From: Propioniferax innocua
Lineage (GTDB): Bacteria > Actinomycetota > Actinomycetes > Propionibacteriales > Propionibacteriaceae
Reading direction: 5' to 3'
NCBI RefSeq assembly: GCF_006716235.1
Contig: NZ_VFOR01000002.1
Span: 806,001-870,000 of the forward strand
DNA: 64,000 bases
Part shown: positions 24,231-56,770 of the stretch, piece by piece
How the letters are laid out: every line of letters begins with the position of its first letter
Numbering within the stretch: position 1 is the stretch's first letter
Notes under the pieces: model-generated
The model's input: only the letters and a program-made list of their open reading frames with translations
The model's database searches: none
Told to the model about the DNA's origin: nothing
Program-made: the position numbers and the translations under genes

Positions 24231-24266
24231 GTTGCGTCCTTTCTCGGTACTCGACGCCGACGGGCG

Positions 24267-28385: not shown

Positions 28386-28795
28386 GCGAATGCGCCTTCC
28401 AAGTCCACAGACAGATGTTCGCGGACACACTCCTCGTATCTGGTCCGGTCTACATCGGCGAGAGCTTCATCACAGCGGGCGTTCCACGCGGCGAAATCCT
28501 CGTCCTCATGCAGATCGTACTGATGCAGACGCACAGCCTGCCCTGCCATACATCGCACATCGTCCAGCACATCCCCCACAGCATCCCGCAACTCATGCTT
28601 AGCCAGCGGGATCATCACCACGATCATCTGCTCGGTGCCCGCGCCGGTCTCCCCTTCGAGTATGCGGGTCACCGCATCGGCCAGACGGTTCACATCGTCC
28701 TCGGCCGCATCGATGATGGTCTCCTGGAGCCGCCGCGCCCTACCGGGAGCAGGCATGGGCGGCACACCGGTCAGCATTGCATCTCGCATGCTCAT
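28382..28795 (-). CDS. Small acidic helical protein coupled to the triple glycosyltransferase
   Basis: A 137-residue predicted soluble, mostly helical protein with many Asp/Glu/Arg residues (RRLQETIIDAAEDDVNRLADAV; MIPLAKHELRDAVGDVLDDV). I do not recognise it. It overlaps the stop of the 1,511-residue glycosyltransferase by ATGA (28792-28795) and the start of the hydrolase by ATGA (28382-28385), so it is locked between two coupled partners. An accessory or adaptor role in the same glycan-modifying complex is a reasonable guess. Confidence 0.7.
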   Translation of the reverse strand: MSMRDAMLTGVPPMPAPGRARRLQETIIDAAEDDVNRLADAVTRILEGETGAGTEQMIVVMIPLAKHELRDAVGDVLDDVRCMAGQAVRLHQYDLHEDEDFAAWNARCDEALADVDRTRYEECVREHLSVDLEGAFA

Positions 28796-31700
28796 GCCGT
28801 CCCGAGGATCTCATCGGTCAGCATGGGCAGCACGTGCTGCTCATCGAACAGCTCCTGCGCGGCCTGACTGTATTCCGCAGAGGGCTCGTGGGTGAGCACC
28901 CGCTCGACCATCTCGTCCACGTTCGTGCACAGCCACGCATCCGGGTAGATGAACTCGGCCCCGGGCCAGTTGAGCGTCACAGGAAGCGCGCCGGACGCCG
29001 CGCCATCGGCGATGGTGAGATGGAACGACTCGAACTCACTGACAGAGATCGCGACGCCGATCTTGCGGTACCAATCGGCCATATCGGGGCCGAATCCGTC
29101 GAACACGACGGCATCCGCCGCTCCAGCGTTGAGCTCGTCGATGCGGTCGAAGACGCGCTGGTAGTACGCCATTTCATCGGTGCGCCGCGCAAGCCACGGG
29201 TAAGCGTCGGGCGTCTTGCCCTTCACGAACAGGCGGTACCGGTCATCCTCCGAACGGAGGCGTTCCAACAGATCAATGGCACGGTCGATGCGCTTGGTCC
29301 TGGGCACCATCCCCACGAATCCCAGATTGAAACGAGCATCGGCGACCTTCTCTCGGCGAAGGTCGTCGACCGCGACCGGATTGGGGATCACCATCGTGTC
29401 GGCGAGAGGGACACCATGACTCCGCACCGCTGCCTGGCGGATCAGTTCGCTGACGAAGATGTGCCGGTCAACATGCGGGTGAGCGATCCGCCGCAGATAC
29501 GGCAAACGCAGCTCCTGGGAGTGGCTACGCACGACGAGGCGCTGGTCGGCACGCACATGTTTGGAGTACCACTCGGCGTTCCCGAGACCCCATTCACAGA
29601 AGATCGCGTCGGCCTGCGCGAGGGCGTCCTTCGACGCCAACTCGTCATGGCTCCCATGGCTCTGCCATTCGTCCACGATCACCTCGACGCCACGATCCTG
29701 CAGAGACTGCATGATCTCGGTGGCGAACTTCAGATCATGCCCGGCCACGACGACACGTTCGGGGGTTCGAACCTGCAGGGGTGAACTCGCAGCCTGGCTC
29801 AGGGACTCGCCCATATCACCGGCATGTGCGTCCTCGACCGTCAGCAGCTCGACGCCGCTGGCAGCATCCACCAAGAGCGCCTGCGAAGTACCACCGGCGG
29901 TACGCACCTCATCGGTCCGGATCAGGTCGACCTGCATCGAGGTGGACGCCACCGGCCGGGCCAACGGAGCACCCACGTCCTCACCCGTGACCGGACGCGA
30001 CCCGATCCGCGTCCACTGGCCGAAGCGGGTGGCTTGAAGCCGGTCCTCCAACCAGGTCCGGCTCAGCGGTCCGGTCACGATGCCGACCCAATCGGACGTC
30101 GCTTCGGTGACCGCGTCGCGCGGCCAGAGGGGAATCTCCAGACCGGAGAGTTCATCGGCGACGGCCTCGGGCACGTCATCGGCGTAGACGGCGACCGGAC
30201 GCACCGACTGCGCCACGATCGAGGACCACACATCATGACTCTGCGAATCAACCGCGAGAGCTGCGGTCTCCCGGCACGGGCCATCGACAGGAATGCCGGC
30301 AGTACGCGCCAGGATCGCCAGCGCGTCATCCACGGTGTGTGAGCGATACACCGCGCGCATCTGCAACCAGGCTTCGCGGGCGCGTTCAACCGGATTGCAA
30401 GACCAGTCCCACAACAGCGCGGCCCACACCGCCGCGTCGTTGGAGCTGGGGATGACGCCACCGAACGTCTCGGCAACACCGCGCCCCGGCCCGGAGAGCA
30501 CAAGACCGCCGCAGGCTGCGACCTCCACGACGCGACGGGAGAACATCGTCGGCGACGATGTCACCGAATTCACGTTCAGTTGGGCGATGTGGGATTTGTA
30601 GGAGTCGATGACCTCGTCGTACGGCAGGACGCCGCGGATGTGCCGTTCAAACTCCTCGGGGAACTGGTACGGCGATTCGGGGTTGGCCAGCTGACGGTCG
30701 TAGATGGTCAACCCGGCGACCTCTTGGCTGGTCTTCAGCAAACGCGCAAGTTGATGCGATCGGGTTTTGTATCGATCACCGTAGTACGTGCCTGCATAGG
30801 CGGCCGACTGTTCGTAGCGCCGGTGTCCCGGTAGCGGGTTGTGGATCTTCGGCTGCGCGTAGAACGGGAGGCTGGAGGCGGTCAGCGACGCCGACCCCTC
30901 GGTCCGCAGATACTGCGGAATCATGTTGGCATCGGTGGTGAAGACGTGGTCACAGCGGGCTGCGGTTTCCCGGAACCGCTGGAAGTGGACCGGATCCTCC
31001 TTGTTCCAGAACACCGTCGGGATACCCCGCGTGCGGCACTGTGCCAGTAGCGAGTACAGGTCGGCGTTCTCCTCCTCGCCGTAGTACCCGACCCCGCGGA
31101 ACCAGTCACCATCATTGCCGTTCCACGCCGACTCGATGAACACGATGTCGAGATGTTCGGCGTCCAGTTGCTCCCGCCATCGGCTCCGGGACAGGGGCAC
31201 GACGGTGACGCTGCCGCTGAGCGTGCTCGTGGTGAACTCATCGGCCACAAGCCCGAAACGAAGATCACCAAGATGTCGAGAATCGGCAGGAAGGTGGGCG
31301 TCGTGGTGCCACCGGGCACTGTGGTGGGCGCTGGACATGGCCCGTCCGAGCGTCCTCCAGTTGCGTTCGTGGAAAGTCCAGTGGCGTGCCACGCGACCGA
31401 GGCGCGCGCGTAGGTCCTCGTCACCGACGAGCTTCCCAAGCTGTTCGGCACACGCCTCCACATCACCGGCGGGGAAGAGCAGCGCCCTCTCCTGGTTCTT
31501 CCCTGCCAGAGTGCGGTGGGGCGAGACGTCCGACATGAGGACGGCTTTACCGGCGCTGAAGGCTTCGAGAGGTTTCAGCGGTGACACCATCTCGGTCACA
31601 ACGCTGGAGTGCCGGGGGCACGGCATGATCGAGAAGGTGCTGAGCAGCTGCGGGATCTCGATCATGGGAAGTCGCCCGAGGAACCGCACGTGTTCCAGTT

Positions 31701-33327
31701 CCAGCTCGGCCACTCGCGCCTTCAGGTCGGCTTCAGCGCCACCGGATCCTGCGATGACCACCTGGTGTTCCACACCACGCTCGACGAGGCGTGCCGATGC
31801 CTCGATCAGAGTGTCGAGGCCCTCGTAATCGACCATGCTGCCTGCGAAACCGACCACGGGGACATCGGTTCGGATGCCATGTTTCTTGGCGTACTGGGCA
31901 TCGGCCGGTATCGGCAGGAAGGTCTCGGGGTCGACCGAGTTGGGCGCGAGCGCGATTTTGGACCGTTCGACGCCACGCTCGACGAGCTCGTCAGCAACCT
32001 CCTGGGTGATCGCCAGCACACGGTCGGCGTTCTGAGCAACCAAGGTCTCCAGCTGGACGGCGGCCTTGAAACGGTCGCTCGCGGCCCAACTGGGGTCGCG
32101 TGACGCTTGGGTGAGTTCCCAGAAGCCCCGCACCTCATACACGAACGGCACACCAAGCCGACGGGCAGCGATCAGCGCAGGGATCGCGGTCAGATGATTG
32201 GACGCGGATTGGATCACGCTGGGACGCTGCAGCCGCGCCTCCCGCACGAATGCATCAGCGGCCGTGGCGAAGTACTCGTCGAGCGGGGCGTCAGCCAATC
32301 TGCTGCCCGGGAGGTGCACATAGTCGACCTCGTCGATCTGCACCACCGTCCGCTTCGCCTCCTTGGGGGCCGGGATGTCGGTCTTGTTGCTGTCCCACGG
32401 ATATCCTTCGCGAGCCACGACGACGACATCGGTACCCACCTCCTTCATCCCGGCAGCGACGCCACGGGTGCGGGTGGAGTACCCGTTGGAGTTGTAGTGC
32501 GGTGTGGAGTGCACGCAATACATGACGCGATCCGGCTCGGGGACGAAGGCCGAGCCCTTGGCGCGCATCGGGATGGCGACGCCATTGCGGGTGACCTTCC
32601 AAGTCCCCCGGATGACCTGCGCCAGTGTCCGTTTCGTCTTGGTCATCTTGGCTGACTGAGCCGAATAGCGATCGAGCAGCTCGCAGGGTGCATCGATCAT
32701 GCCCTCACCGAACCACTGGCGTGTCACCACAGCGACAAGCTTGGCGGGGGTGGGATCGGCCTGCAGATCCTCCAGAAGGTCCTCGAGTGTAGGCGCTGGA
32801 GGCTCCTCGGTCGCCGGAACGAAGCCCGTCGAATCTGCGGCCTTGTGAATCTCGTGTGTCTCGAGGGCTGTCGGGGCGGGGACAGGCACGGTACTGTCCT
32901 GCACTGTTTCAGGTTTTGCGTCGGGCGCTGAAGGCCCTCGCCCGTCTGCGTTGGCCCCGCCACGGCCCAGAGTCGATCGAACCATGCGGGTCAGGCGAAT
33001 CGCCTTGGAGTTCCGCAGGTTCGCCAGTTGCCGCTTGAGATCCTTCGTCTCCCGGCGATACGCGTCCAGTGCAGAGCGCGCCGTCCCAAGGTCGCTCCAG
33101 ATCTTGTCGCGTTCCTTCTCGCTCTTCTCCGCCGTCGACATCGCCCGTTCGGCTTCCTTGCGCGCCTCTGCCAACTCGGATTCCAGCTTCTTGATCACCG
33201 TTCGGTCGGCACGGTTTCGCTCGGCCATACCCTCGAACCGCGTAACCAAAGCGTCAGGATCCGCCAGAAGTTGGGAAACACGCTGCCGGCGAAGTCTCTC
33301 GGGTGAACGTTTCTCGTCAGCGTGCAC
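28792..33327 (-). CDS. Giant multi-domain glycosyltransferase (coiled coil + GT4 + CgeB-like + GT4)
   Basis: About 1,511 residues. After a Lys/Arg/Glu-rich coiled coil (about 35-110) come SKAIRLTRMVRS and a Pro/Ala linker, then three sugar-transferase modules. A GT4-like module (about 240-660) carries YCVHSTPHYNSNGYSTRTRG, VGFAGSMVDYEGLDTLIEA and MVSPLKPLEAFSAGKAVLMSD. A CgeB-like module (about 680-1050) carries DIVFIESAWNG, FWNKEDPVHFQRF and SRRVVEVAACGGLVLSG. A third GT4-like module (about 1180-1500) carries RHIFVSELIRQ, LGFVGMVPRTKRIDRAI and the acidic EFESFHLTIADGAASG. It should build several linkages of one surface glycan in the cytosol. The GTG at 33327 follows GGAAGG; a TTG at 33345 is possible. 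Confidence 0.85.
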   Translation of the reverse strand: MHADEKRSPERLRRQRVSQLLADPDALVTRFEGMAERNRADRTVIKKLESELAEARKEAERAMSTAEKSEKERDKIWSDLGTARSALDAYRRETKDLKRQLANLRNSKAIRLTRMVRSTLGRGGANADGRGPSAPDAKPETVQDSTVPVPAPTALETHEIHKAADSTGFVPATEEPPAPTLEDLLEDLQADPTPAKLVAVVTRQWFGEGMIDAPCELLDRYSAQSAKMTKTKRTLAQVIRGTWKVTRNGVAIPMRAKGSAFVPEPDRVMYCVHSTPHYNSNGYSTRTRGVAAGMKEVGTDVVVVAREGYPWDSNKTDIPAPKEAKRTVVQIDEVDYVHLPGSRLADAPLDEYFATAADAFVREARLQRPSVIQSASNHLTAIPALIAARRLGVPFVYEVRGFWELTQASRDPSWAASDRFKAAVQLETLVAQNADRVLAITQEVADELVERGVERSKIALAPNSVDPETFLPIPADAQYAKKHGIRTDVPVVGFAGSMVDYEGLDTLIEASARLVERGVEHQVVIAGSGGAEADLKARVAELELEHVRFLGRLPMIEIPQLLSTFSIMPCPRHSSVVTEMVSPLKPLEAFSAGKAVLMSDVSPHRTLAGKNQERALLFPAGDVEACAEQLGKLVGDEDLRARLGRVARHWTFHERNWRTLGRAMSSAHHSARWHHDAHLPADSRHLGDLRFGLVADEFTTSTLSGSVTVVPLSRSRWREQLDAEHLDIVFIESAWNGNDGDWFRGVGYYGEEENADLYSLLAQCRTRGIPTVFWNKEDPVHFQRFRETAARCDHVFTTDANMIPQYLRTEGSASLTASSLPFYAQPKIHNPLPGHRRYEQSAAYAGTYYGDRYKTRSHQLARLLKTSQEVAGLTIYDRQLANPESPYQFPEEFERHIRGVLPYDEVIDSYKSHIAQLNVNSVTSSPTMFSRRVVEVAACGGLVLSGPGRGVAETFGGVIPSSNDAAVWAALLWDWSCNPVERAREAWLQMRAVYRSHTVDDALAILARTAGIPVDGPCRETAALAVDSQSHDVWSSIVAQSVRPVAVYADDVPEAVADELSGLEIPLWPRDAVTEATSDWVGIVTGPLSRTWLEDRLQATRFGQWTRIGSRPVTGEDVGAPLARPVASTSMQVDLIRTDEVRTAGGTSQALLVDAASGVELLTVEDAHAGDMGESLSQAASSPLQVRTPERVVVAGHDLKFATEIMQSLQDRGVEVIVDEWQSHGSHDELASKDALAQADAIFCEWGLGNAEWYSKHVRADQRLVVRSHSQELRLPYLRRIAHPHVDRHIFVSELIRQAAVRSHGVPLADTMVIPNPVAVDDLRREKVADARFNLGFVGMVPRTKRIDRAIDLLERLRSEDDRYRLFVKGKTPDAYPWLARRTDEMAYYQRVFDRIDELNAGAADAVVFDGFGPDMADWYRKIGVAISVSEFESFHLTIADGAASGALPVTLNWPGAEFIYPDAWLCTNVDEMVERVLTHEPSAEYSQAAQELFDEQHVLPMLTDEILGTA

Positions 33328-33403
33328 GGTCAACCTTCCGAACAATCCTCAAGCTGGGCAGGGGCACGGTAACACCGACCCTGATTCACTTCACCAAGCC
33401 AGT

Positions 33404-36457: not shown

Positions 36458-37339
36458 TCAGCGCGTGAACGCGTTGCCCGTGAGCCGTTCATAGGCATCG
36501 AGATAGCGCTGCCGCGTGGCGTCGACGATGTGGTCCGGCAGTGGGGGTGGCGCTTGGTCACCAGACCGATCCCATCCCGATTCGTGCACGAGCCAGTCAC
36601 GCACGAACTGTTTGTCGAACGAGTCGAGGCTCTCCGGCCATGCCTGGGCATCCCAGAAACGCGAGGAGTCGGGGGTGAGCACTTCATCGGCGAGCACGAT
36701 CGTCCCGTCAGCACGACGCCCGAACTCCACCTTGGTGTCGGCGATGAGGACTCCGCGCTCACGGGCGATGCGCTCGGCGCGCGTGTAGACCGAGAGAGTG
36801 AGATCGCGGAGCTCGTCGGCGGCTTGTCCACCGACGGTCGCTGCAACGGTCGCGAAGTCGACGTTCTCGTCGTGATCGCCCATCGCCGCCTTGGTGGCCG
36901 GGGTGAAGATCGGATCTTCCAGACGCGCCCCGTCGTGCAGCCCAGCGGGCAACGGGACCCCACAGATGCTGCGATCCACCTGGTATTCGGCCCATCCCGA
37001 TCCGGTCAGGTAGCCACGTGCCACGCATTCGACGGGAAACATATCGAGCTTCTCCACGATGACGGCACGGCCGGCCACGGCGTCGGGCACATCGGTACTG
37101 AGTACGTGGTTGGGCACCACGTCGACGAGCTGCTCGAACCACCACAGAGCCATCTGGTTGAGAATGGCGCCCTTGTCGGGGATGGGTGTGGACAGCACAT
37201 GGTCGTAGGCCGAGATCGCATCGGTCGCCACCATCAACAGCGCGTCGTCACGGTCGGGTAGAGCGTAGAGTTCGCGCACCTTTCCCGCATGCACCAGCGG
37301 GAGGCCCAGAACGTCACCGTAGACAGACTCAGTATTCAC
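36458..37339 (-). CDS. purC: SAICAR synthase
   Basis: PurC joins CAIR and aspartate with ATP to make SAICAR. The 293-residue protein has an intact active-site set: HAGKVRELY (residues 17-25), ATDAISAYDHVLSTPIPDKG (38-57), VECVARGYLTGSGW, IFTPATKA followed by DHDENVDF, IADTKVEFG and ADEVLTPDSSRFWD. It starts with GTG in the context GCGGTGAATACTGAG. A diverged, fused paralogue lies 4.3 kb away at 41602-42831. This copy is the functional purine enzyme. Confidence 0.97.
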   Translation of the reverse strand: MNTESVYGDVLGLPLVHAGKVRELYALPDRDDALLMVATDAISAYDHVLSTPIPDKGAILNQMALWWFEQLVDVVPNHVLSTDVPDAVAGRAVIVEKLDMFPVECVARGYLTGSGWAEYQVDRSICGVPLPAGLHDGARLEDPIFTPATKAAMGDHDENVDFATVAATVGGQAADELRDLTLSVYTRAERIARERGVLIADTKVEFGRRADGTIVLADEVLTPDSSRFWDAQAWPESLDSFDKQFVRDWLVHESGWDRSGDQAPPPLPDHIVDATRQRYLDAYERLTGNAFTR

Positions 37340-37454
37340 CGCTCGATCATGTCACGAACTGCTGCACCGCGCAGCGGACGCCAAGGGCCTTTCTGCGTGT
37401 TGCGGCGCCGGAGCTGTTCCCTGCCGGTGCCCACATACGCAGAGGCGGACGCTG

Positions 37455-38795
37455 TCACCAGATCGAGACCCCGCGACCGATGCCGTGATAGTCCCATCCC
37501 GCCTCGCTCCAAGCTCTGGGGTCGAGCACATTGCGACCGTCAACGATGACGGGGGTCTTGACGATGCTCTTCACCGCAGCCGGATCCAGCTCCCGGAACT
37601 GTTTCCATTCGGTGAGCAGCATCGTGACCTCCGCCCCACTGAGGGCTTCCTCGATGGTGTCGACGACTTCCAGGTCGGGGCGCTGTTCCTTGAGTTTCCC
37701 ACCGGCCTGCGGATCGTGGATCACCACATCGGCACCGCGTGACCACAGCGTCAGGGCGATGTCCAGCGCCGGCGAATCACGCAGGTCGTCGGAGTCCGGT
37801 TTGAAGGCGGCACCCAGCACCGCCACCCGATGTCCGACGAGACGGGGGCCGACAAGGTCGGTGACCAGGTCGACAGCGCCCACGCGACGACGCGTGTTGA
37901 TGGCGTCGACTTCACGAAGGAAGGTCAGCGCCTGATCGACGCCGAGCTCACCGGCGCGGGCCATGAAGGCGCGGATGTCCTTGGGCAGACAGCCGCCGCC
38001 GAAGCCGATGCCGGCACGCAGGAACTTCTTGCCGATGCGGTCATCGTGGCCGATCGCCTCAGCCAGTTTGGTGACGTCAGCACCGGTGGCATCGCAGAGC
38101 TCAGCCATGGCATTGATGAAGCTGATCTTGGTGGCGAGGAACGAGTTGGCGGCGACCTTCACCAGTTCGGCCGTCGGATAGTTGGCCAGCAGGCGGGGCG
38201 TTCCCCGATCGAGGATCTCGCGGTAGCACTCATCGAGCATCTCTCGTGCCTTCTCGCCCTCAGCGACGTCTTCGCTGAGCCCGTAGACGATGCGGTCGGG
38301 TTCCAAAGTGTCCTTGACCGCGAACCCTTCGCGCAGAAACTCCGGGTTCCACAGGACAAGGAGGTTCTTGCCGGATTCGGCGACCTTCCCCGCGATGGCC
38401 TCGGCGGTCCCGACCGGGACGGTCGATTTACCAGCGATCAGCGCCGGCTCTTCACGGTTCGGGTCCGTGTTGTCCAGGATCGTCTGAACGGCGGCATCGA
38501 CCTGGGACATGTCTGCGGCATAGCGGCCCTGCATCTGCGGGGTTCCGACACCGATGAAGTGGATGTCACAGTCAGCGATGGCGGAGGGATCGGTGGTGAA
38601 GGTGAGTCGACCCGCATCGACGTTACGGCGCAGCAGCTCGGGAAGCCCGGCCTCGTGGAAAGGGGCCTCACCACGCGCCAGCAGCTCGACTTTTCGCTCG
38701 TCCACGTCGAGGCCGACGACCTCATGCCCCAACTCGGCCATACAGGCCGCGTGAACGGCCCCCAAGTAGCCACAACCGATCGTGCTGATCTTCAT
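37455..38795 (-). CDS. ugd: UDP-glucose 6-dehydrogenase
   Basis: A 446-residue enzyme that oxidises UDP-glucose to UDP-glucuronate for surface polysaccharide. The NAD+ site is STIGCGYLGAVHAACMAELG; the catalytic Cys is in GIGFGGGCLPKDIRAFM; GAAFKPDSDDLRDSPALDIA lies in the C-terminal domain. It sits among glycosyltransferase genes, between purC and the 907-residue transferase, all on the minus strand. Confidence 0.95.
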   Translation of the reverse strand: MKISTIGCGYLGAVHAACMAELGHEVVGLDVDERKVELLARGEAPFHEAGLPELLRRNVDAGRLTFTTDPSAIADCDIHFIGVGTPQMQGRYAADMSQVDAAVQTILDNTDPNREEPALIAGKSTVPVGTAEAIAGKVAESGKNLLVLWNPEFLREGFAVKDTLEPDRIVYGLSEDVAEGEKAREMLDECYREILDRGTPRLLANYPTAELVKVAANSFLATKISFINAMAELCDATGADVTKLAEAIGHDDRIGKKFLRAGIGFGGGCLPKDIRAFMARAGELGVDQALTFLREVDAINTRRRVGAVDLVTDLVGPRLVGHRVAVLGAAFKPDSDDLRDSPALDIALTLWSRGADVVIHDPQAGGKLKEQRPDLEVVDTIEEALSGAEVTMLLTEWKQFRELDPAAVKSIVKTPVIVDGRNVLDPRAWSEAGWDYHGIGRGVSIW

Positions 38796-38881
38796 CTCTG
38801 CGTCCTCTGAACCACGGAAAGGTCTGTCCGGCTGACTCTAGCCCCAAGCCCGACGCCTGTTCTGTTTCCACCGCGCCCGGG

Positions 38882-41605
38882 TCAGCCTGCGGAAACGGTC
38901 TCTCCCGGTGTCACGGCATCGTCTTCCCTGCCTCCGAAGATCGTTCTGAGCTCCTCATCGGTCCACTCCGTGAAGTCGTACATGTCGTTGATCTGTTGCA
39001 ACAACGACACCGCTTCGTCATAGTCCTCGGGCAGCACCTGCTTGAGTCTCGGCAGGTGCCACCCCTTCAGGAACGCCTCGTAACGAGTTTCCACGTATTC
39101 GTCCATCAGGCCCACCTCACGCAACCATGCCGAGCGGCTCTTCTCCAGCGGCAGGTATTTGCGGAAGAAGTTGGGGCTGATGGTGTTGACCGTCGAGGTG
39201 GAGACCGCCGCGTAGTACACATGGATCACGATCGGGAGGATCTGGATACGGCGTGCGTAATAGAGCATCTGCTGGAAGAAATAGGAGTCCTGCCCCACGG
39301 CGCCGACGGGTTGGGTCAGGCCGAGGCTCCGCAGCCACTCGGTGTTCGCGACGAGGGCCTGGATGCTCATCGGTGTGAACCGGATGTCGGCCAGGCTCGT
39401 GGGCGTCGGCGAGTGGGTTCCGTCCTCGTTGTCCACGAGGTACTTCTTGAGCATCTTGGCATTGGCGACGTGTTTGGGCATGCCCTTGCGCTTGCTCATG
39501 TCACCGATCGCGAAATCCACGCCTGATTCGGTGATCATCTCGAACAGGCGCGCGAACCCGTCGTTGACGGCTTCGTTGTCGGGGTCGAGGTACGTGACAT
39601 ATTCGGCGCTGGCCGCCGCCAGCCCCTGGTTCCGCGGCCGCGACGCACTGCCGGATCCCCCCGGTGCGTTCCGCAGCCATCGGACGCGGTCGGTTCCCCT
39701 GCTCAACCGCGCGAGAAGATCCACCGTTTCCGGGTCGGTCGAGCCATCGTCCACGAGCAGGATCTCCATATCCGAGAAGATCGAGCTGCGTCGCAGGGAG
39801 CTGAAGCACTTGTCCCTCAGGTATCGCCCGTTGTTGTAGACCGGCACGATCACCGAAAGCCGAGCGTCCGTGGCACGCGGCTGCGCGGTCTCGGCGTCCT
39901 CGAAATCCGGTTCACGGCTCGGGAGGGTGAGATCCCCAGAACCGGCGAGAGCGAACTCGAAGGGGTCGATGGCGTAACCGAGACCGTTCACGACCCCGTC
40001 TCGGATGTACGCCCCGAAGGAGGGGCTGTCTACCCAGATCGCACTCAGCTCGGGGCGAGCCTCACTCACCCGGTCATGCTCGGTGGCCGAGCCGATCTCG
40101 CCGTCGATCAGCGAGGTGCTCTTGGTGATGAAATCACTGTCGGTGTAGACGAAGCCGTTGAGCAGGTCCTCGGCGTGGTGAAGCCCGTACTCCACGCCCT
40201 CGGAGACCGGAATCACCACGTCGGCGGTCTCGGCCGCAGCACTCAACTGGTCCTGCGCCAGCACCTCCAGTCCGGGCAGCGACTGGCGTTCACAGAATTC
40301 TCGGGCAGCAGCCTCGGGACCGGTGACGGCGACGCGTGGGGCCAACGAAGCGGTGGGCAACCCGATCGCGTCGAGCATCGCGCCCAGATGTCGATGTGCG
40401 GTGTGGGCCGAGAACACCGTGCGGAGCCCCGCCATCTGCGCCCGATACATGCGTTCGGGGTCGAGCGTCTGCAACTGGTGGGCCACGTCGATGGCCGATT
40501 CGGCCATGAACACCGTCGGGAACCGATCGTTGACGCCAGCGTTGTAGTTCGAGATGACGTAGGCCCCCATGGCCTGCAGTTCCACCACACGGTTGGCGTA
40601 CATGGTCATCGAACCGACCACCGAGTTGAGGTTCACGCTGATGTCGGTGATCCGCTGCAGCTTCAGGAGCCGCTCATGGCTGATCGAGGGTGCGATGTGC
40701 GGCATCAGCATGTGCGGGAATGCGTATTTCGCCATGCCGAGATCGAAGTTCCGATCGAAGATGATCAGCTCACGGTCGGCGTCGAGGATCCCTTGGAAGA
40801 TCGCGGTACCGGCCTTGCGTCGCAGCTGGTACTTGTGACGGTGCCACGAGCCGGCGAACATGATCCGGTCGAGCCGACGACGCCGCGAGCCCACGGGGTT
40901 GTGGTGGAAAGGGTTGACGCCGAAACTCATGACGCCGAACGACTCGGCCCCCGCGCACTTGCTGCGGTAGTCCTTGAGTTTGGTGTCTGCCGTTGTGTAG
41001 ACGTGATCGGCCACGGTTGCCAGAGGCAGGAACACGTCGAAGTTCGGCGGGTCCTCCTTGGAGTAGTAGACGATCGGCACCCCGGCGTCACGGAACACGG
41101 GCACCATCTCATCCATCACCAATCGCCGGACCCATGATCCACGCGAGAGCCCGAACCACTCCTGGTTGAGGCCACGCCACGCCGAGGTGATCATGAACAG
41201 GTCCACGTCATCCACGTGGTCGCGCCAGTTTCCGGGAGTCAACGGAACGAGGTCGGCGAGGCCTTCGAGCGACGAGTAGAGGAACTGATCGGCGATGATG
41301 CCGATGCGTACCGGGTGGGGACGCAGCAGCCTGCTGCCCAGGTGGTCGGGAAGATCCGCGATGAGTTCGTCGATGGCGTCGGCCTGATCGGGAAGGGCAT
41401 CAGTCGCCAGCATCTGCTCATATTCCGCGCCTGAGGCCGCAGGAAAGGGATTGCGGCCCTCCCTCACCAGTTGTTCGAACAGATCGGAGTCCGTGTAGGA
41501 GTCTGTGTCCGCAAGCAGAAGGCGACGCTCCTCGGCTCGGGCTCGTGCCTGCGCGAGCTGCTGTCGTCGCGCAGCAAGGGGCATGCGTTGGAATCCCATT
41601 GTCAT
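38882..41605 (-). CDS. Two-domain glycosyltransferase (CgeB-like + GT2)
   Basis: About 907 residues. The N-terminal part (about 90-440) is a CgeB-like GT-B module: RIGIIADQFLYSSLEGLADLV, DLFMITSAWRGLN, PIVYYSKEDPPNFDVFL and YANRVVELQAMGAYVIS. The C-terminal part (about 570-860) is a GT2 domain: SVIVPVYNNGRYLRDKCFSSL, ILLVDDGSTDPETV and the metal site YLDPDNEAVNDG. It probably adds two sugars to a surface glycan in the cytosol. The ATG at 41605 overlaps the stop of the PurC-like gene as ATGA, so both proteins are made together; another ATG follows two codons later. Confidence 0.85.
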   Translation of the reverse strand: MTMGFQRMPLAARRQQLAQARARAEERRLLLADTDSYTDSDLFEQLVREGRNPFPAASGAEYEQMLATDALPDQADAIDELIADLPDHLGSRLLRPHPVRIGIIADQFLYSSLEGLADLVPLTPGNWRDHVDDVDLFMITSAWRGLNQEWFGLSRGSWVRRLVMDEMVPVFRDAGVPIVYYSKEDPPNFDVFLPLATVADHVYTTADTKLKDYRSKCAGAESFGVMSFGVNPFHHNPVGSRRRRLDRIMFAGSWHRHKYQLRRKAGTAIFQGILDADRELIIFDRNFDLGMAKYAFPHMLMPHIAPSISHERLLKLQRITDISVNLNSVVGSMTMYANRVVELQAMGAYVISNYNAGVNDRFPTVFMAESAIDVAHQLQTLDPERMYRAQMAGLRTVFSAHTAHRHLGAMLDAIGLPTASLAPRVAVTGPEAAAREFCERQSLPGLEVLAQDQLSAAAETADVVIPVSEGVEYGLHHAEDLLNGFVYTDSDFITKSTSLIDGEIGSATEHDRVSEARPELSAIWVDSPSFGAYIRDGVVNGLGYAIDPFEFALAGSGDLTLPSREPDFEDAETAQPRATDARLSVIVPVYNNGRYLRDKCFSSLRRSSIFSDMEILLVDDGSTDPETVDLLARLSRGTDRVRWLRNAPGGSGSASRPRNQGLAAASAEYVTYLDPDNEAVNDGFARLFEMITESGVDFAIGDMSKRKGMPKHVANAKMLKKYLVDNEDGTHSPTPTSLADIRFTPMSIQALVANTEWLRSLGLTQPVGAVGQDSYFFQQMLYYARRIQILPIVIHVYYAAVSTSTVNTISPNFFRKYLPLEKSRSAWLREVGLMDEYVETRYEAFLKGWHLPRLKQVLPEDYDEAVSLLQQINDMYDFTEWTDEELRTIFGGREDDAVTPGETVSAG

Positions 41606-42831
41606 TCCTTCCCTGGCTTCGCCCCACGGGTACGCGACCGCAGGTTCCACCACGCACGCTGGATCCGCCCCATCTTCGATGAGGCCAGATTGTCGTAGCG
41701 CCGTCTCAGATCAGTCAGCTGGCGGTCCCGCTCGGCGAGCGAGGTCTGGAGCTGCCAGACGTACTGGGAAAGCTCGTCGTCGTGTTGCTCGATCTCCCGA
41801 AGGAGTCGTTCCTCCCGGTCGTACGCCTCGCGCAGCTCGGTCTCAACCGCAGCCTGCTGCCGAAGAGCCCGGACGATTCCTCCCCGGAGGTCGTCGGGCC
41901 GAGGGGCCTCGACCTGGGCGATGTCCGGATCCTTCGGTTTCTCAGGCTGCGCGGGATCACCATCGCAAAGCCGACCGGTCAGCCTGGTGTAAGCAGCGCA
42001 GTAGCGCTGGCGAGTCACGGTGACGACCTCGACCGGCAACTCGGGAACCGCCATATCGCCAGCCTGGTCCCATCCTGAATCATTGACCAGCCAATCACGC
42101 ACGTACTCCACGCCCCACGGCACAAGGTTCTGCGGCCACGTCTCGGCATCCCAGAACCGTGAAGAATCGGGGGTCAGGGCCTCACCTGCGAGAACGATGG
42201 TCCCATCTGAACGCTGACCGAACTCGAACTCGGCATCGGCGATGATGACACCACGCTCCCGAGCGATCCCTTCAGCGCGACGGTAGAGGTCCAACGTCAG
42301 GTCGCGGAGCCGGTGGGCGATGTCGGGCCCCACCAGTTCGGATATCGCGGAAAAATCCACGTACTCGTCGTCTTCGCCCCGTCCGGCCTTGATGACCGGT
42401 GTGAAGATGGGCGTGTCCAGACGGCTGCCCTCACGCAGTCCTTCGGGAAGTGGAACACCGCAGACGTGACCGGTCTGCTGATACTCCATCCATCCCTGGC
42501 CGGTCAGGTAACCGCACGCCACGCACACCACTGGGAACATCGTGAGCTTCTCGACAATCACCGCTCGCCCCGCCACGGCGTCTGGAACGTCGGTGGAGAT
42601 CACGTGGTTGTCGACGCCGAGCCGATCGAACCACCACAGAGACATCTGGCTCAGGATGATTCCTTTGTCAGGAATCTCAGGGGTCAGGATGTGACCGCCG
42701 AGGGGCAACCGGTCAATGGCCACCATGAGATGGGCGTCCCGTCCGGGAGCCTCATACAGTTCGTGGGTCCTCCCTGCATGGACCAATGGCAGACCCAAGG
42801 TTTCAGCGTAGACCGGTTCGATACTGCTCAC
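41602..42831 (-). CDS. PurC-like pseudoenzyme fused to a coiled coil
   Basis: About 409 residues. Residues 5-290 align end to end with the purC product of this window, with more than half of positions identical by eye, but the active-site blocks have changed: GKVRELY to GRTHELY (20-26), DAISAYDH to DRLPLGGH (40-47), VECVARGYLTG to VVCVACGYLTG, DHDE to EDDE, DTKVEFG to DAEFEFG, ADEVLTPDSS to AGEALTPDSS. Structural segments such as PDAVAGRAVIVEKL and LTPDSSRFWD remain. Residues 315-395 form a coiled coil ending in NLASSKMGRIQRAWWNLRSR, like the tail of the coiled coil in the 1,511-residue glycosyltransferase. It overlaps the downstream glycosyltransferase by ATGA. SAICAR synthesis is unlikely; a scaffold or sugar-nucleotide role is inferred. 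GTG at 42831 matches the purC start; GTG at 42864 is possible. Confidence 0.85.
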   Translation of the reverse strand: MSSIEPVYAETLGLPLVHAGRTHELYEAPGRDAHLMVAIDRLPLGGHILTPEIPDKGIILSQMSLWWFDRLGVDNHVISTDVPDAVAGRAVIVEKLTMFPVVCVACGYLTGQGWMEYQQTGHVCGVPLPEGLREGSRLDTPIFTPVIKAGRGEDDEYVDFSAISELVGPDIAHRLRDLTLDLYRRAEGIARERGVIIADAEFEFGQRSDGTIVLAGEALTPDSSRFWDAETWPQNLVPWGVEYVRDWLVNDSGWDQAGDMAVPELPVEVVTVTRQRYCAAYTRLTGRLCDGDPAQPEKPKDPDIAQVEAPRPDDLRGGIVRALRQQAAVETELREAYDREERLLREIEQHDDELSQYVWQLQTSLAERDRQLTDLRRRYDNLASSKMGRIQRAWWNLRSRTRGAKPGKE

Positions 42832-42897
42832 CGGGCGATTATCGCATCCGGATTCGTTCCGCACCGGGTATCTGCTGAATCAGCTTCCGGGAGTCGG

Positions 42898-44331
42898 TCA
42901 GAGCACCGAACCGGGTGTGTACGCGGCGGCTCGTGGATGCTGCGCCGCAATGTCCTCGACTCGCTGGGCAACACTCGAAATCTGTGCCGGGGCCGCGCCG
43001 GCCATGTCCAGCGGCTCGGTCACCAGGGCCGCCAGGGCGTCCCGGGAAAGCCCCAGGCGTTCGTCCTGGCCGAGGCGATCGAACAGGTCATTCTCAGCCT
43101 TTCCGGTCTCCCGCATCTCGAGGGCGACGGCCACCGCGTGCTCCTTGATGGCCTCATGGGCGGTCTCACGCCCCACTCCGGCGCGCACCGCAGCCATCAA
43201 CACCTTGGTGGTGCTGAGGAACGGCAGATAGCGCTGGAGTTCGGCGTCGATGACGGCCTCGAACGCGCCGAAGTCGGCGAGCACCGTGAGGAACGTCTCG
43301 AACAGCCCATCGATGGCATGGAACGCACCCGGAAGGGCGACGCGGCGCACCACCGAACACGAGACGTCACCTTCATTCCACTGGTCTCCGGCCAGTTCGC
43401 CGACCATCGACACGAAGCCGCGCAGGATCACCGACATGCCGTTGACCCGTTCACACGAGCGCGTGTTCATCTTGTGCGGCATGGCACTCGACCCCACCTG
43501 GCCGGGCTTGAACCCTTCGGTGACGAGTTCGTGGCCGGCCATGAGTCGGATCGAGGTCGCGACATTGCTGGGGGCCGCCGCCACCTGCGCGAGGGCGGTG
43601 ACGACGTCGAAATCGACCGACCGTGGATACACCTGTCCGGTGGAGGTCAGGACCCGCTCGAAGCCGAGATGATCGGCGACGCGGCGCTCCATCTCGGCGA
43701 GCTTGCCCGCGTCGCCGTCGAAAAGGTCGAGCATGTCCTGCCCGGTTCCCACCGGCCCCTTGATGCCCCGCAACGGGAGACGCTCGAGCAGTTCGTTGAC
43801 ACGCTCGTAGGCGACCAGCAGTTCATCGGTGGCGGTGGCGAAGCGCTTGCCGAGCGTCGTGATCTGCGCCGCCACGTTGTGTGAACGGCCCGCCATCGGA
43901 GTCTCGGCATAGGTGGCGGCGATCCGCGTGAGCGCTGCCAGGGCGGCCACCACACGGTCCCGGACGAGTTCCAGGCCACGACGCTGCTGCAGCAGCTCGA
44001 CGTTCTCGGTCAGATCCCGACTGGTCATGCCCTTGTGGACCTGTTCGTGGCCCGCGAGGGCATTGAACTCCTCGATACGCGCCTTCACGTCGTGCTTGGT
44101 GATGCGTTCACGTTCGGCGATCGAATCGAGATCCACCTGGTCGATCACGCGCTCGTAATCGGCGAGCATCGCGTCCACGTCGGCACCGGCGAAGTCGACG
44201 CCCAAGTCACGCTGGGCGCGCAGGACGGCCAACCAGAGCTGGCGTTCGGCGATGATCTTGTATTCGGGAGACCAGATCTCGGCCATCTCGGCCGAGGCGT
44301 AACGGGTGGCGAGAACGTCGGGGGTGGTCAC
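42898..44331 (-). CDS. purB: Adenylosuccinate lyase
   Basis: PurB removes fumarate from SAICAR and from adenylosuccinate. The 477-residue protein has the fumarase/aspartase-family signature as VGSSAMPHKMNTRSCERVNG, plus TSRDLTENVELLQQRRGLEL and AGRSHNVAAQITTLGKRFA. The GTG at 44331 overlaps the purD stop as GTGA, so translation is coupled; the family-like beginning TTPDVLATRYASAEM supports it. A longer frame to 44475 lies inside purD. Confidence 0.97.
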   Translation of the reverse strand: MTTPDVLATRYASAEMAEIWSPEYKIIAERQLWLAVLRAQRDLGVDFAGADVDAMLADYERVIDQVDLDSIAERERITKHDVKARIEEFNALAGHEQVHKGMTSRDLTENVELLQQRRGLELVRDRVVAALAALTRIAATYAETPMAGRSHNVAAQITTLGKRFATATDELLVAYERVNELLERLPLRGIKGPVGTGQDMLDLFDGDAGKLAEMERRVADHLGFERVLTSTGQVYPRSVDFDVVTALAQVAAAPSNVATSIRLMAGHELVTEGFKPGQVGSSAMPHKMNTRSCERVNGMSVILRGFVSMVGELAGDQWNEGDVSCSVVRRVALPGAFHAIDGLFETFLTVLADFGAFEAVIDAELQRYLPFLSTTKVLMAAVRAGVGRETAHEAIKEHAVAVALEMRETGKAENDLFDRLGQDERLGLSRDALAALVTEPLDMAGAAPAQISSVAQRVEDIAAQHPRAAAYTPGSVL

Positions 44332-45593
44332 GAGCGCGGCACCTCGACCTGGCCGAGGACGGCGTTCTCGGCGATGTCGTGACGCCAGAACAGGTCGGTG
44401 AGCCAGAACGAGCGCAGCGTCGCGTAGACCATGTTGCGCGAGAACTTCAGGCTGCCACCGCGCCCGACGGCGCACATGACGCGACCCGATGCGGAGATCA
44501 AGCGCTCTTCCTCATCACGGGCGGTGCCGCAGTGGAAGATCTTCACCGATCCGGAGGAGAACTGGTTCTCCGCGATCCGCGAACCGGTCGTCGGCTCCTC
44601 GGGATACCCGTTGGCGGCCATGACCACTGCCACGGCGGCTCCCGGGTACTGCTCGAGTTCCCGGTACTCGGAGAGGTCACCGTTCGCGGCGGCGTGGAGC
44701 AACTGTGCCAACGGAGTGGCGTTCAGCGTCAAAACGGCCTGCGTCTCGGGGTCGCCGAAGCGTGCGTTGAACTCGATGACCTTGGGCCCCTTGGCGGTGA
44801 GCGCAAGGCCTACGTAGAGCAGGCCCTGGAACTCGGCGTCGCGCTTCTTCATCTCCTCGAGCGTGGGCGTCACGATCGTGTCGGTCACGGTCTCGACGAG
44901 GTCGTCGGGAGCCCACGGCAACGGGGTGTACGCGCCCATCCCGCCGGTGTTGGGGCCGGTGTCGCCGTCGCCGACACGCTTGTAGTCCTGCGCCGGGGGG
45001 AAGGCCACGGCGCGGGTGCCGTCGGTGACGACGAACAGCGACACCTCGGGGCCGTCGAGGAACTCCTCGACCACGACCGTCTCGCGTCCCTTGGCGTGCT
45101 CCAGTGCGGCGGACTTGTCCTTGGTGACCAGGACGCCCTTGCCGTTGGCGAGCCCGTCCTCCTTGATGACGTAGGGGGCGCCGAACTCCTCCATGGCGGC
45201 CTCGACCTCGTCGAGGGTGCGGCAGGTACGCGATTCGGCGGTGGGGACACCGGCAGCAGCCATGACGTCCTTGGCGAAGGCCTTGGAACCCTCGAGCTGG
45301 GAAGCCGCCTCCGACGGGCCGAAGCAGGCGAAGCCGGCCTCACGGACGCGGTCTGCGACGCCGGCGACGAGCGGGGCCTCGGGGCCGATCACGACCAGGT
45401 CGATGGCGAATTCCTTGGCGAGCGCGATGATCGCGTCGGCGTCGGTGATGTCATCGAGCGGGTGGATGTCGGCATTCAGCTCCATCCCGGGGTTGCCGGG
45501 TGCCGCGTGCACCTCGGTGACGACGGGGTCACGCGAGATGAAGTGCGTCAGTGCGTGTTCGCGGCCTCCGGAGCCGATGACGAGTACCTTCAT
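44328..45593 (-). CDS. purD: Phosphoribosylamine-glycine ligase (GAR synthetase)
   Basis: A 421-residue ATP-grasp enzyme that couples phosphoribosylamine to glycine. Landmarks: MKVLVIGSGGREHALTHFI, DLVVIGPEAPLVAGVADRVR, YVIKEDGLANGKGVLVTKDK and IEFNARFGDPETQAVL. It is first in the purD-purB pair and lies 21 bases after purA on the same strand. Confidence 0.97.
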   Translation of the reverse strand: MKVLVIGSGGREHALTHFISRDPVVTEVHAAPGNPGMELNADIHPLDDITDADAIIALAKEFAIDLVVIGPEAPLVAGVADRVREAGFACFGPSEAASQLEGSKAFAKDVMAAAGVPTAESRTCRTLDEVEAAMEEFGAPYVIKEDGLANGKGVLVTKDKSAALEHAKGRETVVVEEFLDGPEVSLFVVTDGTRAVAFPPAQDYKRVGDGDTGPNTGGMGAYTPLPWAPDDLVETVTDTIVTPTLEEMKKRDAEFQGLLYVGLALTAKGPKVIEFNARFGDPETQAVLTLNATPLAQLLHAAANGDLSEYRELEQYPGAAVAVVMAANGYPEEPTTGSRIAENQFSSGSVKIFHCGTARDEEERLISASGRVMCAVGRGGSLKFSRNMVYATLRSFWLTDLFWRHDIAENAVLGQVEVPRS

Positions 45594-45614
45594 TGGGTCT
45601 TCCCTTTCCGAGCT

Positions 45615-46943
<1,329 letters not shown>

Positions 46944-51694: not shown

Positions 51695-54595
51695 ATGAAC
51701 GAGGAGATCGCCGAGCTTCGCCACGATCTCGAGGGCAAGATCTTCGACCAAGGTTTTCATTGGCGCATTCTTTTCTTGGGCACCTCTGTCAACGGCCCGA
51801 CGGACATCGTCGCTTCGTTGTCGCGATCGCTGCGGAACCTAGGACATCACGTACTGGAACTGGACGCCCGAAAGCACAAGTACCGTAGCAATCCGCTCAA
51901 GCGGCAAGGCGGCATGGGCCCAGTATACGTGCAGTTCGAAAGCCTCCGTCCGGTGCTCGACCGGTTCGAGCCCCAGATGATCGTGTGCTGCGCCGGCGGC
52001 ATGACCTTCACGGAAGAGGACGCGCAGCGCCTCAAGGAACGCGGCATCGTGCTAGTCGGTATCACCCTCAGCGACCCTGATGTCTTCCCGTCAATCAAGG
52101 AGCACCAGCACGTCTTCGACATACACACCACCAATGCAGAGATTGCGTTGGACATGTATCAGGAAGCCGGACTGAACAACACTGTGTATTTCCCGTTCGG
52201 AATCGACCGGGGTTTCGTCACGCAAAGCGTTCCAGAGACCGGGAAATTCGACGCGGACGTGATCTGCCTCGGCCACGCCACCAACCGGCCCGACCGGAAC
52301 TCGATGATGACGGCTCTTGCGAAGGACTTCGACGTCAAGACCTACGGTCGTGGCTGGGAGATCCCCAACTCCGAGACAGTATCCGGAACGGAGATGGTCC
52401 AAGCGCTCCGCGGGGGACGTATCCACGTGAACTTCCCGCTGACTCGCGCTGGTTTCGTGAACATCAAGTGCGGCGTATTCGAGTCGGCTGGCCAAGGTCG
52501 GCTGGTGGCCACTGGACGGTTTGACGAGATGGCTCGGTTCTTCGAGTACGGCGAGGAGATCATCGGGTACGACGACTCCGAAGATTTGGCTCACCAGATT
52601 ACCCATCTCCTAGCAAACCCCGACGAGCTGGAACGGATTTCCGTCAACGGGTTCAAACGGATAGTCAATGACCACCTGTATGAGCACCGCTGGATGGATC
52701 TTTTCAGGCAGATCCGCACGATGGACATCCCCAATGCCAGCCAACTCGACCAAAAGCGAGTCGCCGACGTACGCGAGATCTTGGGCAAGTCTTACCCACG
52801 AGCCAAGAAGGTCATCGTCTCCGGGTTCTACGGAGCACGGAACTTGGGGGACGAAGCCATCCTTCGGTCGATCAGCTCTCGACTTCAGAGTGCCGACGAA
52901 GCCATCCAAGTCCATGTCGCCTCGGAGAATCCCACTTTGGTGGAAGCGACACATGGCCTCCAAGCTTTCGAACGTAAAGCCCACAGGGTCACCGGATACC
53001 AGGTTCGGCAGGCCTCCGCCGTGGTTCTCGGAGGCGGCGGTCTTTGGCACGACTACACCTTCGAACGGGGCGGCGGCCTGTCAGCGATGTTCAACGGAGG
53101 CACGATCTCCATCGCCGGGTTCGGCATTCTTCCCCTGATGGGCCGTGTCATCGATGTTCCGTTCCACGTGGTGGGCATGGGAGTGGGGCCCCTTGATGAC
53201 CCGCTCGCACGCAAAGCGGTTCGATACCTCGCGTCACAAGCGGATTCAATCTTCGTGCGAGACCCCGAATCCGGGGACATGCTCACCGAGATCCTGGGCT
53301 CTGATGCCAACATCCACGTCGGACCGGACACTGTGTACGCCGTGGATCTGAACAGGATTTCCCACGTGATTCCTCGCGAGGTCGAAGAGTTGAAGGATGA
53401 GGGTTACACAATCATCGGCCTCAACCTGCGCCCGTGGGCAGCTGCCAACATGGACGACGTCGCCGAGGCGGCAGCCACAGCTCTCTCCCAGGTTGCAGCT
53501 GACTTGGAACAACGAGGGCAGAAGCTTGCCGTCATCGGTCTGCCCATGCAGGGTGGCAAGCGTATGGATGAGGCAGCGATCCAGTCCGTGTTCAAGCACC
53601 TCCCCCTCTCAGTCAAGCACGTGCACTTTGCGCCCAGCGGCAACTTGTCCTTGGAGAACTACCTGGGGGCACTCGAACACTGCTCGACCATCCTGTGTAT
53701 GCGACTTCACGCAGCGCTCTTGGCACACCGGTCCGGCCGACCCGCGGTTGGCTTGTGCTATGACCCCAAAGTGACCCGACACTTTGCGGAGGTCGGGCGT
53801 AGTGATGCTGGCCTCCCGTTGACCGCCTCCTCCGAAGACATCGCAAGAGCACTCACTGCCAGCATGAACAGCGGACTCTCCGAAGCCAACACAGCGGCAG
53901 TTCGCGACTTGGAAAACGCTGCGCTTGCCTCACTGGACATCGCTGTCAGCGCGATCGCTGACATGGAACCGGTCGAAGCGGTCTATGAGGTACCAGCCGA
54001 CGACGAAGCTGTGGCCAATGCCACCCCTGCCAAGACCGCAGCCAAGCCTGCCGTCGCCCCCTCAGCCTTCTTCACTGAAGTCCAGCCCTCCTCTGTCGGG
54101 CTCGGGGGCGTCAAGCCCAAGCCGAAGGGGCCATTCCGCTTCGGAACCCAGCATCTCTCGGTCGGGTTGGTTGGGGTGACCCAGCCGGAAGCCGGGATGT
54201 ATGTCGGCCATACCGCTAAGGTGCGCTTCAAGACCCCGAAACCACTCCAGTTGGCGCTTCGGATCAAGAACCCCTACGCAAACGAGATGGCACGAGGAAA
54301 GATCTTCCTCGAACTGGAAATCGGATCATTCGCCTACCGCATCGACCTCGTCGAGACTGCAGAAGAGATTGAGCTCAAGTACCTCCATCGTGGTGAATCC
54401 ACGGACTTGAGGTTCGGGCTCCGTGTGGTTGATGATGCGTTCAGGGCTCGGTCTTGGGAGACAGCCAGCACGGCTGAGCTCCTCATTGAGGCGACTACGC
54501 CCGGCCACGCCACCGATAAAGAGCTGCTCATAGCCTCAATCGGACAAGTCACCGACCGGTATGTCCATCCCATCCGTCAAGCTTCCCAGCCCTAA
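51695..54595 (+). CDS. CgeB-like glycosyltransferase fused to polysaccharide pyruvyl transferase
   Basis: A 966-residue protein. Residues 25-345 are a CgeB-like module (WRILFLGTSVNGPTDIVASLS, MIVCCAGGMTFTEEDA, INIKCGVFESAGQGRLVATGRFD in variant form). Residues 365-750 are a polysaccharide pyruvyl transferase (PF04230) with VIVSGFYGARNLGDEAIL, VVLGGGGLWHDYTF, GPDTVYAVDL and CMRLHAALLAHRSGRPAVGL. That domain adds ketal-linked pyruvate from PEP to sugars; in CsaB-type systems pyruvylated ManNAc anchors surface-layer proteins. The last ~140 residues are beta-rich. A role in making and pyruvylating a ManNAc-containing glycan fits the nearby wecB/wecC, but this link is inferred. GAGGAG precedes the ATG. 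Confidence 0.85.
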   Translation: MNEEIAELRHDLEGKIFDQGFHWRILFLGTSVNGPTDIVASLSRSLRNLGHHVLELDARKHKYRSNPLKRQGGMGPVYVQFESLRPVLDRFEPQMIVCCAGGMTFTEEDAQRLKERGIVLVGITLSDPDVFPSIKEHQHVFDIHTTNAEIALDMYQEAGLNNTVYFPFGIDRGFVTQSVPETGKFDADVICLGHATNRPDRNSMMTALAKDFDVKTYGRGWEIPNSETVSGTEMVQALRGGRIHVNFPLTRAGFVNIKCGVFESAGQGRLVATGRFDEMARFFEYGEEIIGYDDSEDLAHQITHLLANPDELERISVNGFKRIVNDHLYEHRWMDLFRQIRTMDIPNASQLDQKRVADVREILGKSYPRAKKVIVSGFYGARNLGDEAILRSISSRLQSADEAIQVHVASENPTLVEATHGLQAFERKAHRVTGYQVRQASAVVLGGGGLWHDYTFERGGGLSAMFNGGTISIAGFGILPLMGRVIDVPFHVVGMGVGPLDDPLARKAVRYLASQADSIFVRDPESGDMLTEILGSDANIHVGPDTVYAVDLNRISHVIPREVEELKDEGYTIIGLNLRPWAAANMDDVAEAAATALSQVAADLEQRGQKLAVIGLPMQGGKRMDEAAIQSVFKHLPLSVKHVHFAPSGNLSLENYLGALEHCSTILCMRLHAALLAHRSGRPAVGLCYDPKVTRHFAEVGRSDAGLPLTASSEDIARALTASMNSGLSEANTAAVRDLENAALASLDIAVSAIADMEPVEAVYEVPADDEAVANATPAKTAAKPAVAPSAFFTEVQPSSVGLGGVKPKPKGPFRFGTQHLSVGLVGVTQPEAGMYVGHTAKVRFKTPKPLQLALRIKNPYANEMARGKIFLELEIGSFAYRIDLVETAEEIELKYLHRGESTDLRFGLRVVDDAFRARSWETASTAELLIEATTPGHATDKELLIASIGQVTDRYVHPIRQASQP

Positions 54596-55781: not shown

Positions 55782-56038
55782 ACCTCCGTCATGACAGCCA
55801 CCTCAGCTTGAGGCTGAACCTACAAGATGGTCGACACAGCCGTCGCCACACCCAGGCCGCATCAGAGGCATGAGCGCACGAAAATTAGAATCGGCAAAAA
55901 TATCACAGCAGCCAGGGGCAGACGACGCCTGCGCTTCTTAACCCAAGCCACGCAGGCCCTTCCCGGCGAGTCGCCATGGCCACCTTCGAGTGCTAACCTG
56001 CCACAATCCTGCTCTTGGTGCACATGGGGGTACATATC

Positions 56039-56770
56039 GTGGCTGGCCTAATGCTCTTCGGTGGATGCTTGATGGGCGACACCTACCACCAGCGTCTGAA
56101 GGGCGATTTCTCACTGCTGTGCTACGTTGCTCGCCAGTCACTTATTAGCGCAATGAGTGGCCCTACTTCTGGACTGCCGGATCCCAAGCTTGGATCAGCC
56201 TTTCAGAAAAGGTGCGTTGACGGCGATATCAAGGGCGATCTTTATACCAAGATCAGTCGATTCAGCGCTGATGCGGACGTATTCGCCATGGACCTTCTCG
56301 TCGAGAGACTCGGCGTTCTGAAGATGCCCGACAGGACGTACATCACCCGCTCCAACGAGTTGATCAAATCATCAGCCCTCTCTCCCCTCAAGCCTGCACC
56401 ACCTCACATCCGCGAAGGAACACCGCAGCATCAGAATTTGTTCCACCGTGCCGCATTTCATCTTGCAGATTCCCTGAACGGGCACGACCTACTATCCCGA
56501 ACCATAGTCATCAGCACGCCATTGGCAAATGTCACATCGACCGGGCGACCGATGCATAAATTCCAACGCTACGATGTTGAAGCCATAAGCAGCCTCCTTG
56601 CGGGATATGCGCATACACTCCAGGAACTGGGGATCGAGGTTCGGAGGATGCCGCCAGAGCTTGCTGTGGCAGACGAGGATCATCAGTGGGGAGCCGCCCC
56701 TTGGCACTACACGGCCCCCGCATATGACTGGATAAGTGAACAGGTCCGAGAAAAAGCGGCATCCTGTTGA
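56039..56770 (+). CDS. DUF6270-type protein, near full length
   Basis: About 243 residues from a GTG at 56039. MLFGGCLMGDTYHQRLKG corresponds to the first block of the family (normally GSCVxRD), then CYVARQSLISAMSG, VDGDIKGDL, DVFAMDLLVERLGVLKM and TYITRSNELIKS follow in family order, ending with WHYTAPAYDWISEQV. The GSCVxRD motif is altered to GGCLMGD. DUF6270 proteins lie in surface-glycan loci; a hydrolase or acyltransferase role is suspected but unproven. The 257 bases before it hold nothing I recognise beyond A+T-richer sequence. Confidence 0.65.
   Translation: MAGLMLFGGCLMGDTYHQRLKGDFSLLCYVARQSLISAMSGPTSGLPDPKLGSAFQKRCVDGDIKGDLYTKISRFSADADVFAMDLLVERLGVLKMPDRTYITRSNELIKSSALSPLKPAPPHIREGTPQHQNLFHRAAFHLADSLNGHDLLSRTIVISTPLANVTSTGRPMHKFQRYDVEAISSLLAGYAHTLQELGIEVRRMPPELAVADEDHQWGAAPWHYTAPAYDWISEQVREKAASC

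Follow-up and report, generated by a model that had tools for sequence, protein, structure and literature searches.

A second PurC in Propioniferax innocua that seems to have become the non-catalytic head of a glycosyltransferase-associated coiled-coil protein

Pseudoenzymes are well known, and in the literature searched we found no description of one derived from PurC, the SAICAR synthetase of purine synthesis (PF01259). The gene reported here, PurC2-cc, lies in a 64,000-nucleotide stretch of P. innocua DNA (referred to as the window). Its product has a head resembling the PurC of M. abscessus (PDB 6YX3) and yeast (2CNQ) in sequence family, fold and length, and it shares with purC genes a position adjacent to purB. 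In contrast to these enzymes its catalytic, Mg- and substrate-binding residues have been replaced, and a C-terminal coiled coil and apparent coupling to a glycosyltransferase (GT) have been added. The succession of head, coil and C-terminal region with a two-module GT partner recalls WbdD of E. coli O9a and K. pneumoniae O3 (PMC3482155, PMC11231755), in which a coiled coil lies between the head and a C-terminal membrane helix with a polymerase recruitment site (PMC11231755); the likeness is one of layout, and no homology is claimed. Folded head, coiled coil and tail follow one another in the AF2 model of PurC2-cc, and the partner gene, encoding a putative polymerase, carries two GT modules (38882-41605). 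The C-terminal region of WbdD is membrane-proximal; the tail of PurC2-cc is basic and Trp-containing, and its helical moment is not significant (p 0.10). The head of WbdD is an active kinase-methyltransferase terminator, whereas that of PurC2-cc, for which SAICAR_synt was the sole family found, has lost its site, and no terminator activity is expected of it. A third comparison is offered by PurC-PurS fusions (genomes G003, G002 and G051 and genus g14), where purC likewise reads onward in frame through a disordered-looking linker, but with PurS as the partner and with an intact enzyme; a literature search returned no relevant paper on such a fusion.

PurC2-cc occupies positions 41602 to 42831 of the minus strand (409 codons). 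Its open frame, counted from the first GTG past a stop, reaches 42864, and residues of PurC2-cc are numbered here from that upstream GTG; translation probably begins with the GTG at 42831, which lines up with the start of purC1, the normal copy. The PurC-like domain (41965-42831) matches Pfam SAICAR_synt with an E-value of 2.8e-47 (161.9 bits against a cut-off of 20; 1e-72 for purC1) and is 62.5% identical to purC1 across 288 amino acids, as expected from the claim of an earlier note on this DNA that a close second PurC lies near the normal one; these two are the only PurC genes of this genome. A proline-containing and charged linker (41899-41964), predicted to be disordered (pLDDT below 50 at residues 303-321), leads into a coiled-coil helix (41680-41898) and a basic tail, SSKMGRIQRAWWNLRSRTRGAKPGKE, from about residue 395 (41605-41679). 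AF2 models the protein with a mean pLDDT of 87 as a PurC fold, the low-confidence linker and one helix of 91 residues (323-413), so the coiled-coil tail that the earlier note had proposed is also predicted structurally; hydrophobic residues take 14 of 21 a/d positions in the coil and 11 of 52 positions elsewhere, in the best register chosen. The TGA stop (41604-41602) overlaps the ATG of the GT gene at 41605, and the resulting ATGA (41602-41605, with AGGGAAGG just 5' of it) is the stop/start overlap previously noted, by which the two genes would be translationally coupled. Scanning for start codons found none in frame between residues 283 and 398; the coil would therefore be made only within the fusion, and its translation separately from the PurC part was ruled out. 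The earlier note had allowed that a fusion present only here might be an artefact of assembly or frameshift. The fusion was indeed found in one species, but the artefact was not borne out and was discarded: the gene is intact, the contig exceeds 1 Mb, codon-position GC is normal, overlaps are ordinary, purB is 66 nt away and nothing points to a frameshift or to a break in the assembly. Promoter and terminator scans gave nothing exceeding chance.

The minus-strand order is purA, purD, purB (42898-44331, start inferred from homologs), PurC2-cc, the two-module GT (38882-41605; Glyco_trans_1_2 and GT2, 907 aa), a gene of the UDP-glucose/GDP-mannose dehydrogenase family (37455-38795), which is part of the insert, and purC1 (36458-37339), which has every active-site position of a normal SAICAR synthase. 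PurC2-cc therefore sits directly downstream of purB in the canonical purC slot, while purS (24959-25180, minus strand), which adjoins purC in relatives, is 16.4 kb away. The de novo purine cluster is in two parts, 21993-25180 and 36458-46943, and since purS, purQ and purL lie at 25180-21993, about 16 kb consisting mostly of polysaccharide genes, together with purC1, separates PurC2-cc from purS. In the relatives examined purB, purC, purS and purQ are contiguous, wholly in L081 and partly in L087, L088 and L089. In several relatives the purC frame continues across a variable linker into purS, which is a precedent for in-frame joining at that junction; such single frames were seen in L081 (7889-9223), L026, L021, L013, L024 and L019, in several genera of the family. 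A cassette between two purC copies is, we infer, the expected product of a single-crossover integration. The purine cluster has been broken up between purC and purS by a polysaccharide cluster, and it is there that a purC copy was fused onto a pre-existing GT partner. The window also holds two large ORFs between PurC2-cc and purS that have no Pfam match (25271-27079 and 27105-28430), and a neighbouring plus-strand cluster with a TupA-like ATP-grasp protein (57012-57818), a pyruvyl-transferase/GT fusion (51695-54595) and a DUF6270 protein (56015-56770). The enzymes of this cluster, together with an epimerase and sugar dehydrogenases, suggest an acidic polymer resembling teichuronic acid. No Wzm/Wzt pair for ABC-transporter export was found among the window ORFs scanned.

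PurC2 (the PurC part of PurC2-cc) probably arose by duplication in its own lineage. In the tree PurC1 and PurC2 are sisters with weak support (92/43, then 72/65), an alternative topology with the PurC of genome G015 was not rejected (p-AU 0.46), and the branch to PurC2 has roughly three times the length of that to purC1. Second, distant PurC paralogues occur in some members of the family (L050, L051, L052 and L053), with about 37-39% identity to purC1 and on a deep branch apart from PurC2. The second PurCs of genomes G022, G113, G124 and G129 were set aside as counterparts of PurC2, being a different and distant paralogue.

The altered active-site motifs reported in the earlier note are all present in the sequence: from purC1 to PurC2, GKVR becomes GRTH, SAYD becomes PLGG, CVAR becomes CVAC and DTKVEFG becomes DAEFEFG. 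One further change, given there as DHDE to EDDE, holds for the His, which is lost (GDHDEN to GEDDEY), but the Asp that follows is kept. Counting only columns with a family conservation of 95% or more, PurC2 carries a deviating residue in 11 of 20 active-site columns and in 8 of 82 others (Fisher p 3.2e-5), as against 0 of 20 and 3 of 82 for purC1, with an active-site list taken from the human PAICS model (PMC9376930), mapped by motif onto purC1 and omitting human F129 and D133, for which there was no safe mapping. Gone are the Lys and Arg of GKVR, the Ser and Asp of SAYD, the Mg-binding Glu (V113), the Thr and Lys of DTK (A211, E212), an Asp (G227), the Lys of the DKQ motif (V252), and the Arg (C117) and Ser (Q123) of the RGYLTGS motif, while K159, D166, E214, the DSSR block and R256 are retained. 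In variable columns (consensus below 80%) PurC2 differs at 61 and purC1 at 56, so the excess change in PurC2 falls in conserved columns and mainly within the active site. Measured against the conserved ATP-, Mg-, CAIR- and Asp-binding residues that characterise a SAICAR synthetase, the 11 changes mean that PurC2-cc is almost certainly not a SAICAR synthase.

The remainder of the domain has changed far less. The earlier note had proposed a comparison of the predicted structure with PurC, and the head of the AF2 model does match PurC structures, an agreement partly built in, since the alignment behind the model consists mostly of true PurCs. In 300 runs of a drift simulation that rejected only stop codons and halted once 11 active columns had changed, a mean of 41 of the 82 other conserved columns were altered (minimum 16), against the 8 observed. 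A two-ratio codon model gave an omega of 0.17 on the PurC2 branch and 0.049 elsewhere; outside the active-site columns, here a wider set than the literature list, the values were 0.107 and 0.054 (2dlnL 2.4, not significant), and an omega of 1 was rejected (2dlnL 17.5). The active-site partition was left out, its fit being unconverged and the omega=1 fit better than the free one. Simulation and codon model together argue that the fold was kept while catalysis was lost. Purifying selection on the fold is thus supported, judged from a single sequence of one species on a long branch and with an omega averaged over time, which takes in any period as an active enzyme. The opinion of the earlier note that catalytic positions lost selectively from an otherwise conserved fold speak for neofunctionalisation over decay is supported by these figures.

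The coil is not confined to P. innocua. Genome G004, the only other one in the family set or the order sample with a full-length ortholog of the GT (42% identity), carries a stand-alone coil gene (L072, 13513-13959) of 148 residues that ends in KSKLGRLQRRVWRLRTSLRRGGKA and whose stop meets the GT frame, and a third coil, in genome G166 (L086, 5630-6325), ends in NSTLGRVTTKYWALRKRLRS and meets a GT2 gene likewise. The PurC2-cc tail SSKMGRIQRAWWNLRSRT aligns with both, the common motif being S(K/T)(L/M)GR...W.LR; against the G004 coil it scores 88, where 5000 heptad-preserving shuffles reached at most 69. The stop/start contact is ATGA in PurC2-cc, and TTGA and GTGA are possible starts in the relatives. 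These genes resemble PurC2-cc in coil, tail and contact with a GT and differ from it in having no PurC head. The coil thus ranks as an established GT-associated element and the novelty of PurC2-cc is its PurC head, which, as the headless coils of G004 and G166 show, is dispensable for the basic coil-GT partnership. PurC2 was said in the earlier note to have gained a coiled-coil tail; the fusion stands, but its direction is reversed, a purC copy having apparently joined a pre-existing GT-partner coil. The SKxxRxxR motif which that note likened to one in the giant GT of the window is a real but loose resemblance: in the GT it follows an N-terminal coil, starting at residue 113, and has an E-value of only 0.002 against the tail profile, and closer relatives of the PurC2-cc tail are in other genomes. 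The giant GT itself (28792-33345) is a multi-module protein of 1517 aa whose N-terminal coil ends in SKAIRLTRMVR, so that a similar coil motif occurs in cis on a GT in the same genome. A protein of another family (L092, 1042-2190; 382 residues) consists of an N-terminal domain, a coil and the tail motif of PurC2-cc, here SKLGRLTLQYWGAKRHLR, followed by a hydrophobic, transmembrane-like segment, which fits a membrane-proximal location of the tail.

The fusion, the ATGA overlap, the loss of the active site, the constraint elsewhere in the fold and the free coils beside GTs are the observations from which we start in reading PurC2-cc as an adaptor of the coupled GT, built of a coiled coil and headed by a pseudoenzyme, an explanation we hold with moderate confidence. 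A purC copy beside purB would have become continuous in frame with a small coiled-coil gene of the kind that precedes a two-module GT in a relative; its catalytic site would then have been lost and its fold retained under purifying selection while purC1 sustained the purine pathway. PurC2-cc would be made in step with the GT through the overlap, and its coil and basic tail may bind the GT or position it at the membrane. By analogy with WbdD, coil and tail probably hold the GT near the membrane with the PurC fold as a non-catalytic head, which could serve as a spacer, a dimer module or a docking surface. Contact with the GT and the membrane and the part played by the head are the inferred side of this explanation, the exact role (scaffold, spacer or ruler, or sensor) included; the scaffold or sensor suggested in the earlier note is possible. 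The AF2 model of the GT (pLDDT 35) was too poor for use. In a bolder and rather improbable version, the former purine enzyme heads a coiled-coil ruler or sensor which fixes how long a surface polysaccharide becomes or how fast it is made; such a device would be WbdD-like, would rest on a pseudoenzyme and might still read adenine nucleotides.

An unlikely alternative is that only coil and tail matter and that the PurC part is a dead remnant kept open for their translation. The need to translate the coil through the PurC part would alone explain the intact frame, given the missing internal start, and this alternative also accommodates the headless coils of G004 and G166 and the long PurC2 branch; it is countered by the uniform relaxation it predicts, which would have altered about 41 of the 82 other conserved columns where 8 are altered, and by an omega outside the active site well under 1. 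Less probable again is a head that binds an adenine nucleotide or purine intermediate and so ties glycan synthesis to the purine state of the cell. The adenine pocket of M. abscessus PurC includes His69 and the RRLDM hinge (PMC6501894), to which H87 and EKLTM of PurC2 correspond; such a sensor would also make sense of the retained K159, D166, E214 and DSSR block and of the location in a purine operon, but the phosphate/metal positions (K20R, R22H, E104V and D218G, in purC1 numbering) and substrate positions (R108C and S114Q) are lost. New catalysis, in which the protein would serve as ligase or kinase for a glycan or amino-acid substrate, is very unlikely: the PurC fold is distantly kinase-like and the cluster has other modification enzymes, including the TupA-like and pyruvyl-transferase proteins, but the Mg-ligand Glu, the nucleotide/metal-site Asp and both substrate Lys have become Val, Gly, Glu and Val with no substitute motif, which tells against the new ligase imagined in the earlier note. 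That PurC2-cc is a divergent duplicate still working as a SAICAR synthase is extremely improbable, its Pfam score far above the cut-off notwithstanding, since 11 of 20 conserved active-site columns differ, many of them by radical replacements, and purC1 is intact.

The adaptor with a pseudoenzyme head has so far one representative. No PurC-coil fusion was found elsewhere among the 198 genomes of the family searched, and P. innocua is here the sole representative of its genus. Across 395 genomes of the class a profile of the tail gave four matches including that of the window itself, with no other PurC fusion, and among the other three only the L092 protein looks meaningful; a scan of genome contigs returned only ordinary purC genes of Kocuria and Micrococcales. 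In this one species a metabolic enzyme thus seems to have been turned into a non-catalytic part of the machinery for cell-surface sugars. Both ancestral parts are identifiable, purC1 in the operon and the free coil in relatives, and PurC2-cc would illustrate the capture of an enzyme of primary metabolism by a glycan-assembly operon. With it one can test clearly whether a dead enzyme fold can be kept for structural reasons, and it draws attention to small coiled-coil proteins as partners of glycosyltransferases in actinobacteria, a class that has been little noticed.
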